Positions 37,975 through 44,613 of a DNA stretch of 64,000 bases are shown piece after piece; positions within the stretch are counted from its first letter, which is position 1, and every line of letters begins with the position of its first letter. Both the position numbers and the translations under genes were made by a program. Source of the DNA: Robiginitalea sp. SC105 (GTDB lineage: Bacteria; Bacteroidota; Bacteroidia; Flavobacteriales; Flavobacteriaceae); the NCBI RefSeq assembly GCF_014243345.1, contig NZ_JACLZF010000001.1, positions 248,001 to 312,000 on the forward strand, written 5' to 3'. A model generated the notes under the pieces. The model worked only from the letters and a program-made list of their open reading frames with translations, was not told the origin of the DNA and did not search any database.

Positions 37975-38421
37975 ATGAACCCTAGCCGCTTAATTTACAA
38001 GGTATTCCTCCCCCTGCTCCTGATGGCGTGCAGCACGGATGCGCGCAACCGGAACCCGAACCTCCAGGAACTGGGATTCCGGTTTGAGATGAACCTCAAC
38101 CTGCCCTTGTACAGCCCGCTCACCAGCACCGGAAACCCGGTATATATAGGCAATACGGGGACGGGTATCCGGGGGGTTTTTGTCATGAACACTGGTTTTG
38201 ACCAGATGCGCGCCTTTGAGGCAAGCTGCCCGAACCACCCGCCGAACAGTTGCTCCACCATGCAGCTCGAGGGACAGAATGCCGTATGCCCCTGCGAGGA
38301 TTACGAGTACAGCCTGTTTACCGGGCAGATGCTGAACCCGCCGGAAGACGGGCAGCGCTACTACAATATGCTGGAATACCGGGCCACGCGCAGCGGGGAT
38401 ATCGTCACCATCAGCAACTAA
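37975..38421 (+). CDS. Lipoprotein with a degenerate Rieske-like cysteine pattern
   Basis: This 148-residue lipoprotein (lipobox ending at Cys19) has cysteine pairs resembling a Rieske [2Fe-2S] domain: Cys85-x2-His88, Cys93, and CPCEDYEY (105-112), where Rieske proteins have CPCH. The second histidine ligand is Glu108, so normal cluster binding is doubtful. The segment YSLFTGQ resembles the Rieske post-cluster loop. It may be a structural relic or bind a different cofactor. It converges with the TonB-dependent receptor gene, 2 bp apart. Confidence 0.7.
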   Translation: MNPSRLIYKVFLPLLLMACSTDARNRNPNLQELGFRFEMNLNLPLYSPLTSTGNPVYIGNTGTGIRGVFVMNTGFDQMRAFEASCPNHPPNSCSTMQLEGQNAVCPCEDYEYSLFTGQMLNPPEDGQRYYNMLEYRATRSGDIVTISN

Positions 38422-38423
38422 CC

Positions 38424-40658
38424 TCAGAACTGCACCCGGGCCCCAGCCAGGAAGTGGATGCCCGCCTGGGGGTAATACCCTACCCCTTCGACGGTGGTGA
38501 TGGTCCCCGGGTTGGAGAAATCGTCGTCAAAGGTGTAAAAGTACCCGTTGGAACTGAACCGGGCATCGAAGATGTTGTTCACCAGGGCCGTTAAGGTTAT
38601 TTCCGGGAAACCGCCAGAAACGGGAAGCCGGTATTCCAGGTTCAGGTCGGTCTGGGTGTAGGCATCCAGGCGGGAGCGCGCAGCCTCGATATTGCTCATG
38701 TACTGGTCACCGACATACTTGGTGAGCACGGCGGCCTGCAGGTTGCCGGTCGGGGTCCACACCAGGCGGCTCCCGGCCACCACCCCGGGGGAATAGGCGA
38801 TTTCCGTGTTCCCCAGGCCGGTCAGTTCCCCGTCCCGGCGAAAGAAATAATCCACGTTCCGGTTGACACTCAGGGCGATATTGGGTTGCCAGCGGAGGCG
38901 GGATGCCAGCTTCAGGTCGGCATCGATCTCCAGGCCCAGCCGGTAGCTGTCCCCCACATTCGCCCGCAGGGGGGCACCCACATCGTTCAGTTGGCCGGTG
39001 AGGACGAGCTGGTCCTTATACCTCATATAGTAGACATTGGCATTCAGGGACATCCCCTCCCCGGCCCGGCGCCATCCCAGTTCAAAATCATTTAGCCGTT
39101 CGGGCCGGGGGTTACCGCTTTCATAATCGTTCCGGTTTGGCTCCCGGTTTGCCACAGCATAGGAGAAATAAATGTTCTGCCCGGGACGAATCCGGTAGGT
39201 AAGTCCCAGCTTGGGGTTGAAGAACCGGAAGGTATCGTCGACTAACCCGGTTTCGACCCCATTGGCCTCGTAGGCCACCCCCCGGTACTGCAGGTCGGCA
39301 AAAAAGCGCCAGTGGCTGTCGAGCTCATAGTTGGCCTTGGCAAACACATTGAGATCCTCCTTGCGGGAATCGTCTTCGTAGTACCGGTCCCCCCGTTCCA
39401 GGCTGCCCGCATACCGGGCCCAGATCAATTCGCCGAAATGATCCCCCCGATAGGTGTTCCAGCCGCCGCCCACTGTCAGTTCCAGCGGGCCCCGGTTGTA
39501 GATGGCCGAAAATACCGTCCCCAGGAAATCGTTGTCGAGCCAGCGGCGCCGGATATAGTCCGTGGTGGCCTGTTCCTCCCCGTCGATCACCGGGTTTTCC
39601 AGGCCCAGGAAGGCGTAGAACGCATCCGGGGCAAACAGGATATTGGTGTAGTACCACTCGTCCACATATTCTTCAAAAAATCCGCGCCCCCGCGTATAGT
39701 GCAGGGCAAGGCTGGTCTGCAGGTCCCCCGTCCATCGCTCGTTCCAGTGCAACTGGAAATGGTCCTGCTTGTAATTGTCCACCTGGTTCTCGTAAAAGCC
39801 CTCGAAGTTGCCGTCCGGGTCGAACTGTATGCCGGCGATATTGAACCGGCGGTTTTCCTCCAGGTCGTTTTCCACGCCTATGGCAGCCAGGGTTGCCGGG
39901 TCAAATCCGTACCAGGACTGGTAGGTGATCTCATGTCCGCCGAAGAGGAGCGCCTTGACCAGCGTATTGTCGTCCAGGTAGGCGCCTTGCAAAAAATAGG
40001 AGTCCAGGTCCGATGTGGCCCGGTCGATGTACCCGTCGGAACGGATACGGGACAACCTGCCGGACACCTCAAAATGGTCCTTCAGCAGGCCGGAACTGAA
40101 TTTCAGGGTGGCCTTGTGCGTATTGAAACTGCCGGCGGAGCCGGCAAGGGAAGCATAGGGATCCCGGGAAACGGCATCGGTGAGCAGGTTCAGGCTGGCC
40201 CCAAAAGCCCCGGCCCCGTTGGTGGAGGTACCCACGCCCCGCTGCAGCTGGAGGTTTTCCGTGGAGGAGGCAAAATCGGGCATGTTCACCCAGAAGGTAC
40301 CGTGCGACTCTGCATCGTTGTAGGGGACGCCGTTGATGGTGACGTTGACCCGGGTGGCATCACTGCCACGGACCCGGATACCGGTGTACCCCACCCCGGC
40401 ACCGGCATCGGAGGTGGTCACCACCGAAGGCAGGTAATTCATCAGTATCGGGATATCCTGGCCGAGGTTACGGCTTTGGATGCGCTCCGCCTTCAGGTTC
40501 GAAAACGTCACCGGCGATTCCTGCTGTGCGCGGACGGCGGCAACCAGCACCTCATCGAGGCGGATGGAATCCATTTGTGTGCTGTCTGCGGGAGTTTGCT
40601 GGGCAGAAGTCTGAATAGCCAGCCCAAGCGTGGCCAATAAAGCGAAAATAGTTTTCAT
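38424..40658 (-). CDS. TonB-dependent receptor, likely thiamine transporter
   Basis: This 744-residue outer membrane receptor has a signal peptide (1-19), a plug domain (about 50-160; IRVRGSDATRVNVTINGVP) and a C-terminal beta-barrel ending in an aromatic residue (RVQF). The specificity is inferred from its leader, which holds a TPP riboswitch (40788-40897). Bacteroidota TonB receptors under TPP riboswitches take up thiamine or precursors. No SusD partner is present. The three genes upstream on the same strand complete a thiamine set. Confidence 0.9.
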   Translation of the reverse strand: MKTIFALLATLGLAIQTSAQQTPADSTQMDSIRLDEVLVAAVRAQQESPVTFSNLKAERIQSRNLGQDIPILMNYLPSVVTTSDAGAGVGYTGIRVRGSDATRVNVTINGVPYNDAESHGTFWVNMPDFASSTENLQLQRGVGTSTNGAGAFGASLNLLTDAVSRDPYASLAGSAGSFNTHKATLKFSSGLLKDHFEVSGRLSRIRSDGYIDRATSDLDSYFLQGAYLDDNTLVKALLFGGHEITYQSWYGFDPATLAAIGVENDLEENRRFNIAGIQFDPDGNFEGFYENQVDNYKQDHFQLHWNERWTGDLQTSLALHYTRGRGFFEEYVDEWYYTNILFAPDAFYAFLGLENPVIDGEEQATTDYIRRRWLDNDFLGTVFSAIYNRGPLELTVGGGWNTYRGDHFGELIWARYAGSLERGDRYYEDDSRKEDLNVFAKANYELDSHWRFFADLQYRGVAYEANGVETGLVDDTFRFFNPKLGLTYRIRPGQNIYFSYAVANREPNRNDYESGNPRPERLNDFELGWRRAGEGMSLNANVYYMRYKDQLVLTGQLNDVGAPLRANVGDSYRLGLEIDADLKLASRLRWQPNIALSVNRNVDYFFRRDGELTGLGNTEIAYSPGVVAGSRLVWTPTGNLQAAVLTKYVGDQYMSNIEAARSRLDAYTQTDLNLEYRLPVSGGFPEITLTALVNNIFDARFSSNGYFYTFDDDFSNPGTITTVEGVGYYPQAGIHFLAGARVQF

Positions 40659-40787
40659 CCGTAAAAGATTTACGAATAAAAGGGGCTATTATCCTATGGT
40701 TAATTTGATTTTTTGAGCGCCCCAGGCAAAGGCCAACCTGTATGGGTTGTCCCTGGCCGGAATCGGCCCGAAAGCCTTTTCCCTACG

Positions 40788-40897
40788 CTCGGTCCCTTGG
40801 CAGCATTACCTGCCCAGGTTCAGCGGGTGTAATCTCAGCCCCGGAGTTTTTGGCCTGGTTGAATAACCTGGCCGGAATCGCGGAGCACCCCTTTGAG
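40788..40897 (-). promoter_or_regulatory. TPP (thi box) riboswitch
   Basis: On the minus strand the aptamer reads AAAGGGGTGC, a long P3 arm, GCTGAGA, ACACCCG, GAACCTG, then CAGGTAATGCTGCC and AAGGGA, closing with CCGAG against CTC. These are all conserved TPP-binding elements in order. The P3 arm is extended by a GGTT/AACC-capped stem. It lies downstream of a -7 element and upstream of the TonB receptor gene, so TPP should reduce receptor expression. Confidence 0.95.
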
Positions 40898-40902
40898 ATG
40901 CT

Positions 40903-40911
40903 GCAAATATA
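40903..40911 (-). promoter_or_regulatory. Promoter -7 element (TATATTTGC) of the riboswitch transcript
   Basis: It is a perfect match placing the transcript start a few bases before the aptamer. Confidence 0.6.
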
Positions 40912-40968
40912 ACCGGCATCTCGCAGAATCCGAAATCTTCCGGGTGCTATTTCCGGGATTTGCCCGTG

Positions 40969-43077
40969 CTATTTTCCATCCGTACGATGCGCCGGCTTGA
41001 GGAGGTCGTTTACTGTTTTAACCGGGTTGAATGTGCTGACCGGCACTTCGGCAAAGACGGTATTCCAGAACGCCATCCCCCCGTTCCAGAGGCCGGGAAG
41101 TTCCAGGGCTTTGAGGGGGCGGCCCTCGGAGGTCTTATCGGTGATAAAGCCCTGCTTTTCGTCCACAAAATTCAACAGGTTGTATTTTTCCCCGTAGGCA
41201 TCCCGCACGCCGCAGACCAAATCTACCGGGTTGAAATGGGTGGATTCGCGAAAGATGGTTTCCTGCTCCTTATCGGAGGTATCCACCTGGGCAGATTCGA
41301 TAATCTGTAGGGATTCATGGCCCTTTCGGTCCGTAATCCAGAATGGGCCTCCCCCGGGTTCCCCTTCGTTCCTGACCATCCCGCAAACGCGGATCGGCCG
41401 GGCCAGTTTATCCCGGAGCACAGCCACCTGGTTTTCAATACTCAGCCCCTGGAAGCCGTCGGCAAACCTTGCATTGAGCCTGTTTTCAAGGAAAGCCTTG
41501 ATCCGGTTGAGCAGGTCGTGGTCCAGGCTGCCTTCCGACAGCATGCGCGAATAGCTGAAGGCCTGTTGCTGCAGTTCAATCAGGTATCCTCCGAGGATCT
41601 CCTTCCAGCGGGTAACCTCCCCGAGGTCCGAACGGACCACCACATTATCGATATTCTTGATGAATATGAGGTCAGCGTCCTGTTCGTCCAGGTTTTCAAT
41701 CAACGCCCCATGGCCGCCCGGGCGAAACAGTATCCGCCCCTCATTGTCCCTGAAAGGAGTATTCTCCGGGGTCACGGCAATGGTGTCCGTGGATGGTTTC
41801 TGGAAAGAATACCCAACCGTGAACGAGCGGGCAACCTCACTGCTCACGCGGTCGTTTACCGCCTTGAATTCCTTGTTGAACAGCTCGCTGTGCTGGGGTG
41901 AAATGGTAAAGTGCAGGGCCGCCGTATCCCCGCTGCTGGCATAGGCGGCGCCTTCGTAAAGGTGCTCCTCGAAGGGGGTGACCAGCGTCCCGTCGTAATT
42001 GTGGAAAGGCAAAAGCCCCTTGGGATAAAAACCATAGTTCAGGCCATCTTCCGAAAGCAGTTCCCGGACAAATTCATGCAACTCGGCTTCCCTGATGGTC
42101 GCCTTCCCGCGGATCCGGGACTGCACCAGCCCGTAAAACGGGAATTCCCGCAGGTGCTGGGAAAACTTCCGGATGTCCCGGTGACCGGGCTTTGCCAGGT
42201 ATTCCTCCAGCGAATCGGTTTCCGGGTCAAAATCCTGCAGGAAGTTAAAGAGGGCCTTGAACATCCGCGAGGCCGCCCCGGAAGCCGGGATAAACTTCAG
42301 CACCTCCAGATCCCCGTCCCGGTTGCGATACGCCTGCTGCAGGCGGTTTTCCTCTTCCGACGAGAACCTTACAATCCCATCCCCCACTACGGCCGCCTTG
42401 TGCAACCGCACCGGCGGGATCCCTTCCCGGAACGTTTCGATCTGGCCCTCGGCTTTTTCGGGGCTGATCCCCTTTTCGGCCATATATTCCAGGTCTGCGG
42501 GTGTAAAGTTGCTCATGGTGTCCAAAAGTTTATCGATGTGTTTGACTGCTGTTTCCAGCCGGGTTTCCCGGCTTCCGCTTAAGATAACAAATCTGCGATT
42601 ATTCTCCCGGAGTGCCGACTGGAAATGGCGGAACATCTCCTCCCGCTCCAGGGGTTTGTCGCGCAGGTCATCCGGTTCCCAGGGAATGTCGATATCCGTC
42701 AGGAAATACAGGTCGTACCGGTTAGCAAGGGCCGCCTCCTCCAGGCGGGGGTCGCAACTCCCCAGGTAGTAGGTCTCGGAATAGACCTTGGTTTCAAGAA
42801 GGTCCGTATCGCAAACCAGCAGCCGCTCCGCCTGTCGGGCGAGCCGGTTCTCCAGCTCCATTTGCCCGCGGGCTATGGGCAACAGGTCTTCCGGTGCACA
42901 GGTCTGCTGTAACCGGTCCCATTTGTCCTGCAAATATTCCCGGGCGTATTCGGGCACCCAGGGTTCCCTGTAATGGCGTGCCAGGTCTTTGGCCAGGGTG
43001 GTTTTGCCGGTCGATTCGGGACCGAAAAGGACCACTTTCAGGACGCCTGAGGGCTGTTGTCTAAGTGCTTCTTCCAT
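40969..43077 (-). CDS. Fusion of a NadR-like P-loop kinase and DUF4301
   Basis: This 702-residue protein joins two domains without a stop. Residues 1-187 are a NadR-type nucleoside kinase/AAA_28 domain with P-loop GPESTGKTTLAKDLA and EYAREYL. From Met188 (ATG 42516) the sequence matches DUF4301 over about 515 residues (ASGAASRMFKALFNFL, YEGAAYAS). Many flavobacteria seem to have the two as adjacent separate genes. The start at 43077 overlaps the PnuC gene by 40 bp. Given neighbours (TPP riboswitch, PnuC/PnuT, thiamine-binding protein) the kinase may phosphorylate thiamine rather than nicotinamide riboside. The DUF4301 role is unknown. Translation might also begin at Met188. Confidence 0.88.
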   Translation of the reverse strand: MEEALRQQPSGVLKVVLFGPESTGKTTLAKDLARHYREPWVPEYAREYLQDKWDRLQQTCAPEDLLPIARGQMELENRLARQAERLLVCDTDLLETKVYSETYYLGSCDPRLEEAALANRYDLYFLTDIDIPWEPDDLRDKPLEREEMFRHFQSALRENNRRFVILSGSRETRLETAVKHIDKLLDTMSNFTPADLEYMAEKGISPEKAEGQIETFREGIPPVRLHKAAVVGDGIVRFSSEEENRLQQAYRNRDGDLEVLKFIPASGAASRMFKALFNFLQDFDPETDSLEEYLAKPGHRDIRKFSQHLREFPFYGLVQSRIRGKATIREAELHEFVRELLSEDGLNYGFYPKGLLPFHNYDGTLVTPFEEHLYEGAAYASSGDTAALHFTISPQHSELFNKEFKAVNDRVSSEVARSFTVGYSFQKPSTDTIAVTPENTPFRDNEGRILFRPGGHGALIENLDEQDADLIFIKNIDNVVVRSDLGEVTRWKEILGGYLIELQQQAFSYSRMLSEGSLDHDLLNRIKAFLENRLNARFADGFQGLSIENQVAVLRDKLARPIRVCGMVRNEGEPGGGPFWITDRKGHESLQIIESAQVDTSDKEQETIFRESTHFNPVDLVCGVRDAYGEKYNLLNFVDEKQGFITDKTSEGRPLKALELPGLWNGGMAFWNTVFAEVPVSTFNPVKTVNDLLKPAHRTDGK

Positions 43078-43670
43078 GCCAGGTAGCCTTGGATGGCCAA
43101 GATAGTGAATATGAGGTACTGGAGGGACAGCATGCCCCAGCCCCGGTAGGCATAGAGGGGGACGGTAATGATGTCTGCCACAATCCAGAGGGTCCAGTTT
43201 TCCAGTTTTTTCAGCGCCATATACCACATGGCCGTAAAGAAGATGCCGGAGGTGACCATATCCACGTAATTGGTCCAACGGATCTCCGTTCCGAAGACCC
43301 GGTAGACAAAATAGGTAAACGCCGTCGTAAACACGAAAAGCAGGAACCCAATCCACTTTTCCCGGGCGGTTGTCCGCGAGATGCGCACCAGGATGCGGTC
43401 GCCTTTGCGGCGCGACCAGTTCCACCACCCGTAGACGCTCATTACCGAGTAATAGAGGTTCAGCATCATATCCCCGAGCAACTCGTCCCGAAGGAAAATA
43501 TACATGGTGATCAGGGTGGCAATCAGGCCGGTGGGATAGACCCAGATATTCTCCCGTTTGGCATACACCACGCTGGCGATCCCGAAAACAAAGGCAACTG
43601 CTTCCAGGGCGATCAGCCAGGCCTCCCGGTCCCGGTACGGATCAAAAAAGAAATCAGAAATGGGGTTCAT
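43038..43670 (-). CDS. pnuT: PnuC/PnuT family transporter, likely for thiamine
   Basis: This 210-residue inner membrane protein has about seven helices and matches the PnuC vitamin transporter family, with WVYPTGLIAT and the WNWSRR region typical of the group. PnuC homologues named PnuT carry thiamine in Bacteroidota. I prefer thiamine over nicotinamide riboside because the cluster contains a TPP riboswitch and a thiamine-binding protein. It overlaps the upstream gene by 17 bp and the kinase fusion by 40 bp. PnuC proteins usually rely on intracellular phosphorylation to trap substrate, which the fused kinase could supply. Confidence 0.85.
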   Translation of the reverse strand: MNPISDFFFDPYRDREAWLIALEAVAFVFGIASVVYAKRENIWVYPTGLIATLITMYIFLRDELLGDMMLNLYYSVMSVYGWWNWSRRKGDRILVRISRTTAREKWIGFLLFVFTTAFTYFVYRVFGTEIRWTNYVDMVTSGIFFTAMWYMALKKLENWTLWIVADIITVPLYAYRGWGMLSLQYLIFTILAIQGYLAWKKHLDNSPQAS

Positions 43671-43914
43671 ACCGGCTGCGGTCCGTCTTTACCATTTTGA
43701 TGAAAAAGACCGCCTGCCCAACGGCCGAAAGGCTTTTGCGCATTTCTGCGGCAAGGACTTCCATGACGTGGTCGTATTCCCCGTAGACCTGGGTACTCAT
43801 CGGATTCTCCAGGACAGTGAGCCCGGAGGCCCTCAGGGCGGTGATAAACCGGATTATTTCCTTTTCGTAATCGTCCTGCAGCGGGCTCAGGGTTAATTCG
43901 ACTGATATGTCCAT
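43654..43914 (-). CDS. MTH1187/YkoF-type thiamine-binding protein
   Basis: This 86-residue protein matches the MTH1187/YkoF-like family, small ferredoxin-fold proteins that bind thiamine or its pyrimidine. It starts MDISVELTLSPL and has the characteristic PMSTQVYGEYD loop. It is first of a group with the PnuC transporter (17-bp overlap) and kinase-DUF4301 fusion. A near-consensus -7 element (TACCTTTAT, 43931-43939) precedes it. It may act as a cytoplasmic thiamine carrier or sensor. Confidence 0.85.
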   Translation of the reverse strand: MDISVELTLSPLQDDYEKEIIRFITALRASGLTVLENPMSTQVYGEYDHVMEVLAAEMRKSLSAVGQAVFFIKMVKTDRSRYEPHF

Positions 43915-43974: not shown

Positions 43975-44613
43975 TCAGGCCTCTTCCCGGACGGCAAAGG
44001 CACAGGTAAATCCCTCAAATTCCGAGAAATCGATGCCGAAACCGGTCTTTTTGCCATCGTACATTACCTGCCCCCCCGTCTCTCCGCTGTCCATGGCAAA
44101 GTCATCAATGCAAATATGGTTGAGGAAGCTCAGGCCGTGGATGGCCATTACCTTATAAAGGGACTCCTTGGCACACCAGACCATGGTGAGCTTGCGGATC
44201 AGGGCGTCATCGTTGGCCATGGAACGGTACTCCCGTATGGGGGTAAACCGATGGGCAATGCGCAGGATTTTTTCGCGCTGTTTTTCGATATCGATGCCCA
44301 CCTCCCTGCTTTTGGAGAGGATGATCCCCGTAAACTCAAAGGAATGCGTAATGGAGATATGTGTGCCGTCCCTGAGGTGGGGCTTTCCGGCAGGGTCGTA
44401 ATAGAGATCGGCATCAATGTAGCCTTCCCGTGCCATCAGGTGGCGGATGCTCAAAAACGCCCTGCGGTGCAACTCGGAACGCATGCCGTCATATCGCTGC
44501 TGGCAATGCGGGTTCAGGGTAATCCCCGCGGCCAGTTCCGCCTCGGGCTCGGTGACCTTCCAGACATGGACCCGGCAATCCGGACCGGCTTGCGTCGATT
44601 TGTATAGCGGCAT
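43975..44613 (-). CDS. 4'-phosphopantetheinyl transferase superfamily protein
   Basis: This 212-residue protein has the Sfp/AcpT motifs GIDIEK (metal binding) and WCAKESLYK. It would attach phosphopantetheine from CoA to acyl or peptidyl carrier proteins. No carrier protein genes are adjacent. It lies 60 bp upstream of the thiamine operon on the same strand, so read-through is possible. It is divergent from ahcY. Confidence 0.9.
   Translation of the reverse strand: MPLYKSTQAGPDCRVHVWKVTEPEAELAAGITLNPHCQQRYDGMRSELHRRAFLSIRHLMAREGYIDADLYYDPAGKPHLRDGTHISITHSFEFTGIILSKSREVGIDIEKQREKILRIAHRFTPIREYRSMANDDALIRKLTMVWCAKESLYKVMAIHGLSFLNHICIDDFAMDSGETGGQVMYDGKKTGFGIDFSEFEGFTCAFAVREEA

Follow-up and report, generated by a model that had tools for sequence, protein, structure and literature searches.

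A putative thiamine salvage cluster with a NadR-like kinase, and its lineage-restricted link to DUF4301, in Robiginitalea

Organization of the locus

We analysed a 64,000-nucleotide stretch of Robiginitalea sp. SC105 (Flavobacteriaceae; contig NZ_JACLZF010000001.1, positions 248,001 to 312,000), hereafter the window, in which a minus-strand gene cluster joins a PnuC-family transporter, a NadR-like kinase and DUF4301 to a thiamine pyrophosphate (TPP) riboswitch and a TonB-dependent receptor. We propose that this cluster serves thiamine salvage. Listed in order of transcription, with positions counted from the first letter of the window, its features are as follows.

43975-44613, minus: 4'-phosphopantetheinyl-transferase-like (PPTase-like) gene, named by eye
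43654-43914, minus: small protein, putatively thiamine-binding and of the MTH1187/YkoF type, 86 amino acids (aa) (PF01910)
43038-43670, minus: PnuC-family transporter, putatively the thiamine transporter PnuT (PF04973 and tree position)
42517-43077, minus: NadR-like P-loop kinase domain, putatively a thiamine kinase forming thiamine monophosphate (TMP) (AAA_28 and distribution)
40969-42516, minus: DUF4301, in frame with the kinase; predicted nucleotidyltransferase resembling uridine diphosphate (UDP)-sugar pyrophosphorylases (PF14134 and structure model)
40904-40911, minus: promoter-like motif TATATTTG before the riboswitch (TANNTTTG enrichment at riboswitch starts)
40776-40902, minus: TPP riboswitch aptamer before the TonB gene (RF00059)
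38424-40658, minus: TonB-dependent receptor, putatively a thiamine receptor of the OMthi type (PF00593 and PF07715)

An earlier note on this DNA, made from the sequence, had described such a run of adjacent minus-strand genes, and the profile and Rfam matches bear out its composition. The genes for the thiamine-binding protein, PnuC and the kinase overlap end to start. In profile searches, the thiamine-binding protein scored 29.6 bits with PF01910 (cut-off 24.9), 21.1 bits with PF07615 (cut-off 21) and 14.5 bits with TIGR00106 (cut-off 54.7), PnuC scored 174.6 bits with PF04973 (cut-off 27.3), the kinase scored 154 bits with AAA_28, and the receptor matched both of its Pfam models. The kinase frame runs without a stop into DUF4301 (700 bits with PF14134), and the open frame presumably yields one protein. 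The fusion claimed by the earlier note therefore stands as an open frame in the window, but it is not the usual state: the two genes share one frame in 27 of 80 pairs, and in most relatives they are separate and closely spaced.

A focused scan of 701 bases placed the TPP riboswitch model on 40776-40902 as its sole match, at full model length (42.3 bits, E 7e-7); the whole-window Rfam scan at the gathering score (54.3) reported no TPP riboswitch. A lineage riboswitch model, which includes this very sequence and was applied to 150 of 990 first-look candidates, matched this segment and nothing else in the genome. The segment is situated between the DUF4301 and TonB genes and precedes the receptor only, and TATATTTG, which we take to be a promoter-like motif of the Bacteroidetes -7 type, stands just before it. 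TANNTTTG occurs within 54 bases around the start in 85 of the 88 riboswitches of DUF4301 loci, the window included, where shuffles lead one to expect 3.6. Given this position and its own promoter-like motif, the riboswitch that had been assigned to the receptor gene appears to govern the receptor rather than the four upstream genes.

The riboswitch of a relative in the same family (L198, 5631-5745) likewise scored below the gathering score (37.3 bits against 54.3), so that standard annotation may miss both elements. In L193, L194, L196, L202, L218 and L244, PnuC or TonB genes are preceded by a pair of weak TPP-like matches spaced about 100 bases from each other; at the gathering score Rfam called no riboswitch in L196, L202, L218 or L244, and L202 has one 39-bit match.

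Neighbourhoods were compared in 296 Bacteroidota genomes of 140 genera, 51 of which hold DUF4301, and up to 20 kb around each of these 51 genes was examined for five markers (PnuC, the kinase, the thiamine-binding protein, a TonB homologue and a TPP riboswitch). A second, named set comprised the best 80 of 584 confirmed DUF4301 loci and is biased towards close relatives. Families of the genome sample carry f numbers, f1 being that of the window, and g2 denotes one genus; from their matching arrangement, f1 probably corresponds to the named Flavobacteriaceae loci. Gene content, motifs, phylogeny, co-occurrence and predicted fold are given below as observed or computed. The 27 f1 loci have an adjoining PnuC in every case, a TPP riboswitch in 26, a TonB homologue in 26, the kinase in 24 and a thiamine-binding protein homologue close by in 10. 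In the named set the corresponding counts are 62 (PnuC), 59 (riboswitch), 58 (receptor), 56 (kinase) and 39 (thiamine-binding protein) out of 80, and the linked loci include one from Ichthyobacteriaceae and four without a family name.

Phylogeny of the PnuC-family transporter

By their names, the transporter and the kinase could also be read as nicotinamide riboside (NR) salvage, in which PnuC imports NR, the kinase makes nicotinamide mononucleotide (NMN) and the thiamine-marked receptor is a mere neighbour. The family names and the closest solved structures, PnuC and NadR, favour this reading, as does the riboswitch not standing in front of either gene. The transporter phylogeny speaks against it. 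In a tree of 125 PnuCs, labelled by their neighbouring genes and built by a quick method with Shimodaira-Hasegawa-like approximate likelihood ratio test (SH-aLRT) support, the window protein falls inside a 72-row clade (SH-aLRT 98) holding all 31 DUF4301-linked rows and 10 of the 11 that are linked to a TPP riboswitch or a riboswitch-TonB pair, together with 15 of 27 kinase-linked PnuCs and 16 of 44 others. All 11 NadR-linked PnuCs lie outside it, and a riboswitch was seen in none of their loci. The source of the tree was 97 PnuC stretches, which do not include 15 further clear PnuC matches (14 from f23, one from f3); 31 of 89 DUF4301-linked PnuCs were taken, and five loci with weak PF04973 matches (L253-L257) are absent because they gave no match to the tree model. 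Two genomes, G202 and G182, hold a separate PnuC-NadR pair besides the cluster, which also argues against NR salvage as the work of the cluster.

The same clade includes the riboswitch-TonB-PnuC-TPK arrangement of f11, where TPK is thiamine pyrophosphokinase. TPK directly follows PnuC in clade members L177 and L179 (TPK matches G230:C6:116090 and G238:C1:549151), and in L168 and L171 PnuC faces a gene that reads as TPK. The OMthi-pnuT-tnr3 operon of Bacteroides thetaiotaomicron is a thiamine uptake operon (PMC5613172), and the f11 loci are of that type. Together these sequence relationships support the window PnuC as a thiamine transporter, PnuT. The eleventh riboswitch-linked PnuC is a second copy in Kriegella (L086) on a long branch outside the clade; this very divergent gene (L086, 20129-20701) lies directly behind the riboswitch-TonB pair and is present in addition to the cluster PnuC.

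Distribution of the NadR-like kinase

The best NCBIfam match of the kinase is the NadR model TIGR01526, at 101.5 bits far under its cut-off of 341. The NMN adenylyltransferase domain with its HxGH motif, expected N-terminally in NadR, is absent; the kinase starts at 43077. Of the 11 proteins classed as NadR, ten carry HxGH and one, L209, has a variant. This motif, not open reading frame length, set the NadR label, and L167, L186 and L188 were moved to the kinase group before tree building; the HxGH check of kinase matches covered frames of at least 230 aa, with the exception of G215 (262 aa). Of the 56 standalone kinases in a 70-domain tree, 54 fall into two supported clades without NadR-type proteins, and L167 and L188 lie outside these. 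As a separate observation, L186 (6093-6602) has a kinase of the same type in one 498-aa frame with aldose-epimerase-like sequence, identified by eye.

The strongest evidence on the kinase is its distribution. The standalone kinase was counted in 69 of the 296 genomes, in 41 of 140 genera, after 6 genomes with NadR-type proteins only and 4 with weak matches (E > 1e-10) had been subtracted from 79 matched genomes. All 69 also hold PnuC and ThiL over the cut-off. TPK is present in 148 of the 296 genomes; outside g2 no genome has both enzymes, 55 have only the kinase, 131 only TPK and 93 neither (Fisher test, 2e-18). Collapsed to genera, the numbers are 41 with the kinase, 81 with TPK, one with both (g2) and 19 with neither. 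TPK occurs in all 17 genomes of g2, and in 3 of these, and nowhere else in the sample, the kinase is missing beside PnuC-DUF4301. ThiL over the cut-off is lacking in 69 of 134 TPK-only genomes but in none of the 69 kinase genomes, a pattern that fits TPK making TPP directly and the kinase stopping at TMP.

A further contrast comes from the 48 genomes that have ThiL and lack both ThiE and TPK: the kinase is present in 43 of them, compared with 26 of the remaining 248 genomes (the ThiE-positive list used held 141 genomes, of 144 over the cut-off). The window genome, 99.99% complete, belongs to this group. It has ThiL, and searches of it for TPK, ThiC, TMP-TENI/ThiE and ThiK gave no match; unless thiamine itself is converted to TMP by phosphorylation, its ThiL would thus lack any known supply of this substrate. 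In these 48 of 296 genomes the activation of imported thiamine is left unexplained by the enzymes searched, and in 43 of them the NadR-like kinase is a candidate for the missing enzyme. The kinase was also found near a riboswitch-TonB pair without an adjacent DUF4301 in f1 (L198), f3, f5, f8 and f9. NR salvage predicts neither the exclusion of TPK nor the constant presence of ThiL nor the kinase in these 43 genomes. From sequence and distribution, the protein would be a thiamine kinase supplying ThiL with TMP.

It is also conceivable, but improbable in our judgement, that the kinase acts on a precursor or breakdown product of thiamine, or that it forms TPP in one step. In eight of eight PnuCs examined behind TPP riboswitches in other families (f2-f4; L194, L202, L206, L214, L218, L239, L241 and L244) the next gene is acyl-CoA-dehydrogenase-like by eye, a possible flavoenzyme in thiamine salvage, which hints at the salvage of derivatives. 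However, with no ThiE match in the window genome no known enzyme could join phosphorylated moieties there, and the ThiL that accompanies the kinase without exception would be needless to an enzyme forming TPP.

Proposed thiamine salvage system

We consider it likely, with a probability of roughly 0.8, that the cluster is a thiamine salvage system in which the TonB receptor, PnuT and the NadR-like kinase lead to TMP and ThiL leads on to TPP; its substrates, direction of flow and regulation are what we infer from the data above. The receptor, as the product of the riboswitch-led gene, would be made at low TPP and would carry thiamine across the outer membrane, and PnuT would let it through the inner membrane. 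The kinase would then phosphorylate thiamine to TMP, trapping it, and ThiL, encoded elsewhere in the genome, would turn TMP into TPP. On this proposal the kinase would be a non-orthologous replacement of TPK in many Bacteroidota, and DUF4301, which shares the cluster and the reading frame, probably performs separate work.

The OMthi-pnuT-tnr3 operon, which takes up and traps thiamine, resembles the window cluster in combining a TPP riboswitch and a TonB receptor with a kinase and a PnuC-family transporter. The window differs in having a NadR-like kinase plus ThiL in place of TPK, in having its riboswitch before the receptor only, and in the additional thiamine-binding protein and DUF4301. The likeness to NadR, a bifunctional NMN adenylyltransferase and ribosylnicotinamide kinase, consists of the related P-loop kinase domain and the PnuC beside it; the window kinase lacks the adenylyltransferase domain, its PnuC belongs to another clade than the NadR-linked ones, and its occurrence goes with the presence of ThiL and the lack of TPK.

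Several observations weigh against the thiamine assignment. The nearest solved relatives of the kinase profile are NadR proteins (PDB 9x6f, E 2e-27; 1lw7, E 5e-22), and four NadR-type kinase domains (f8, f10) share one larger clade with standalone kinases. The co-occurrence statistics for the kinase and TPK handle shared ancestry only by collapsing to genera, and genes of nicotinamide adenine dinucleotide (NAD) metabolism were outside the search. Five of the 48 genomes with ThiL but without ThiE and TPK have no standalone kinase; four of these have NadR-type proteins, and the fifth, G248, is about 94% complete. The only riboswitch found in the window lies downstream, before the TonB gene, and precedes neither PnuC nor the kinase. 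Among the 27 kinase-linked PnuCs without DUF4301, 12 (from f3, f5, f6, f7, f9, f25 and f29) fall outside the PnuT clade, which favours NR salvage; for only 6 of the 27 does the examined stretch contain a TPP riboswitch. In at least six genomes (G002, G080, G091, G138, G261 and G269) a TPP riboswitch precedes another PnuC that is separate from the PnuC-kinase pair, and in G269, G091, G261 and G002 this again favours NR salvage. Taking both sides together, we rejected NAD salvage on the PnuC phylogeny and the kinase co-occurrence, and we give the NR reading a low probability. The earlier note's preference for thiamine over NAD salvage for the transporter and the kinase is upheld by these two lines and by the riboswitch and TonB homologue in nearly all f1 loci.

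The four genomes with NadR-type proteins are G013, G034 and G131 (f18) and G096 (f31); they have ThiL and PnuC and lack ThiE, TPK and the standalone kinase, and their NadR-type kinase may serve thiamine too.

A large vitamin reconstruction lists ThiK, ThiM and ThiN as B1 salvage enzymes and, in its accessible part, no NadR-like kinase (PMC6593275). A literature search that largely lacked subscription papers, and that included accessible parts of PMC5613172, PMC7221760 and PMC6593275, likewise gave no account of a thiamine kinase of the NadR-like type. If true, the thiamine kinase reading would correct the NAD-salvage reading of a kinase that profiles call NadR-like.

Predicted fold of DUF4301

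No function of DUF4301 was described in the literature searched, again largely without subscription papers. Its predicted structure, modelled from an alignment of 41 sequences (the window and 40 of the 80 named loci), has a mean pLDDT (predicted local distance difference test) of 90.9 and a pTM (predicted template modelling score) of 0.90. In a Foldseek search of the PDB, all 48 matches at E <= 0.001 were UGP/UAP/USP enzymes, that is, UDP-glucose, UDP-N-acetylglucosamine/N-acetylgalactosamine (UDP-GlcNAc/GalNAc) or UDP-sugar pyrophosphorylases (best E 3.9e-11; identity 9-15%; template modelling score 0.36-0.55). A sequence profile of 25 diverse members had the UDP-GlcNAc pyrophosphorylase (UAP) 3oc9 as its first match (E 0.0018), in an alignment that spans the RPxGHGAL and KNIDN stretches. 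The motifs SGxxxRMF, RPxGHGxL and KNxDN are invariant in the 25 members and may be nucleotide-binding, uridine-binding and metal motifs. Pfam UDPGP scored 16.9 bits on the window DUF4301, under its gathering score of 22, and reached E <= 0.1 in 10 of the 25 members (best 1.1e-4). DUF4301 thus resembles the UDP-sugar pyrophosphorylases in predicted fold and differs from them by its low identity and sub-gathering score. Given the predicted fold and these profile matches, DUF4301 is probably a nucleotidyltransferase of the UDP-sugar-pyrophosphorylase fold, and it would gain a testable chemistry, nucleotidyl transfer.

Linkage of DUF4301 to thiamine genes

The earlier note had gone further and assigned DUF4301 to thiamine metabolism. 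We consider it unlikely that DUF4301 is a dedicated thiamine-metabolism protein, although a number of observations point that way. It adjoins PnuC in all 27 f1 genomes that have it and in 62 of the 80 named loci. Fusion into one frame with the kinase seems to have happened independently in the window lineage, in L047, in L094 and in a Flavobacterium group; such repeated joining hints at coupling, and it is also easily explained by stop loss between adjacent genes. Beside PnuC, DUF4301 is kept even in loci without the kinase (3 of 27 f1 loci, 6 of 62 named loci), which tells in favour of a thiamine role and equally shows that DUF4301 does not depend on the kinase. Outside f1, TPK is present in 18 of 24 genomes with DUF4301 against 113 of 242 without it (p 0.01, uncorrected for ancestry); DUF4301 and TPK show no mutual exclusion of the kinase/TPK sort.

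Against a dedicated role stand the predicted UDP-sugar-pyrophosphorylase fold, three f1 genomes that keep PnuC and the kinase without DUF4301, and the neighbourhoods elsewhere. When these are compared across Bacteroidota, as the earlier note had advised and had set as a test of its claim, the constant company of PnuC is confined, in the genome sample, to f1: at the remaining 24 of the 51 loci, all outside f1, none of the five markers was found nearby. In seven of these 24 (f16, f21 and f47), regulator genes of STAS-like or RsbW-like type, named by eye, lie within 3.5 kb instead, which is a second, non-thiamine context of DUF4301. The loci of this partner-switching type are L069, L070, L073, L074, L075, L079 and L080, and both kinds of gene lie on the same strand in L079 and L080. 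Outside f1, the association of DUF4301 with the kinase (p 0.24) or with PnuC (p 0.18) was not significant.

The 18 named loci without PnuC comprise seven from Prevotellaceae, four from Bacteroidaceae, two from Flavobacteriaceae (Aquimarina by title), one each from Saprospiraceae, Marinilabiliaceae and Marinifilaceae, and two without a family name. The linked copies of DUF4301 group together; the group also takes in the two Aquimarina copies that are unlinked and leaves out one linked copy from Ichthyobacteriaceae, so that the linkage looks like essentially one evolutionary event. The region also keeps seemingly unrelated genes. Judged by eye, 25 of the 51 loci in the sample have a PPTase-like gene and 26 an S-adenosylhomocysteinase-like gene, always within f1, and 20 have a PcrB-like gene; the gene picker missed the PPTase-like gene of the window itself. 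An apparent single origin in such a region further weakens the assignment to thiamine metabolism, and DUF4301 as a family-wide thiamine protein was rejected on the absence of linkage at the 24 sample loci outside f1.

A more specific proposal is that the kinase-DUF4301 frame is the B1 counterpart of NadR, a thiamine kinase with a nucleotidyltransferase of the UDP-sugar-pyrophosphorylase fold that would attach thiamine phosphate to a nucleotide and so make a nucleotidyl-thiamine of the adenosine-thiamine-phosphate kind. To our knowledge, the synthetic enzyme of such compounds is still without a gene; we hold the proposal to be very improbable. The related idea that DUF4301 takes the place of NadR's NMN adenylyltransferase was rejected: the chemistry is possible, but the associations outside f1 given above do not support it.

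Adjacent lipoprotein-like gene

On the plus strand, facing the TonB gene, the window contains a small lipoprotein-like gene (37975-38421) with a CPxH...CxC pattern that is Rieske-like by eye. Homologues of this gene were listed by the gene picker at 20 of the 27 f1 loci, but the copy in the window itself was not.

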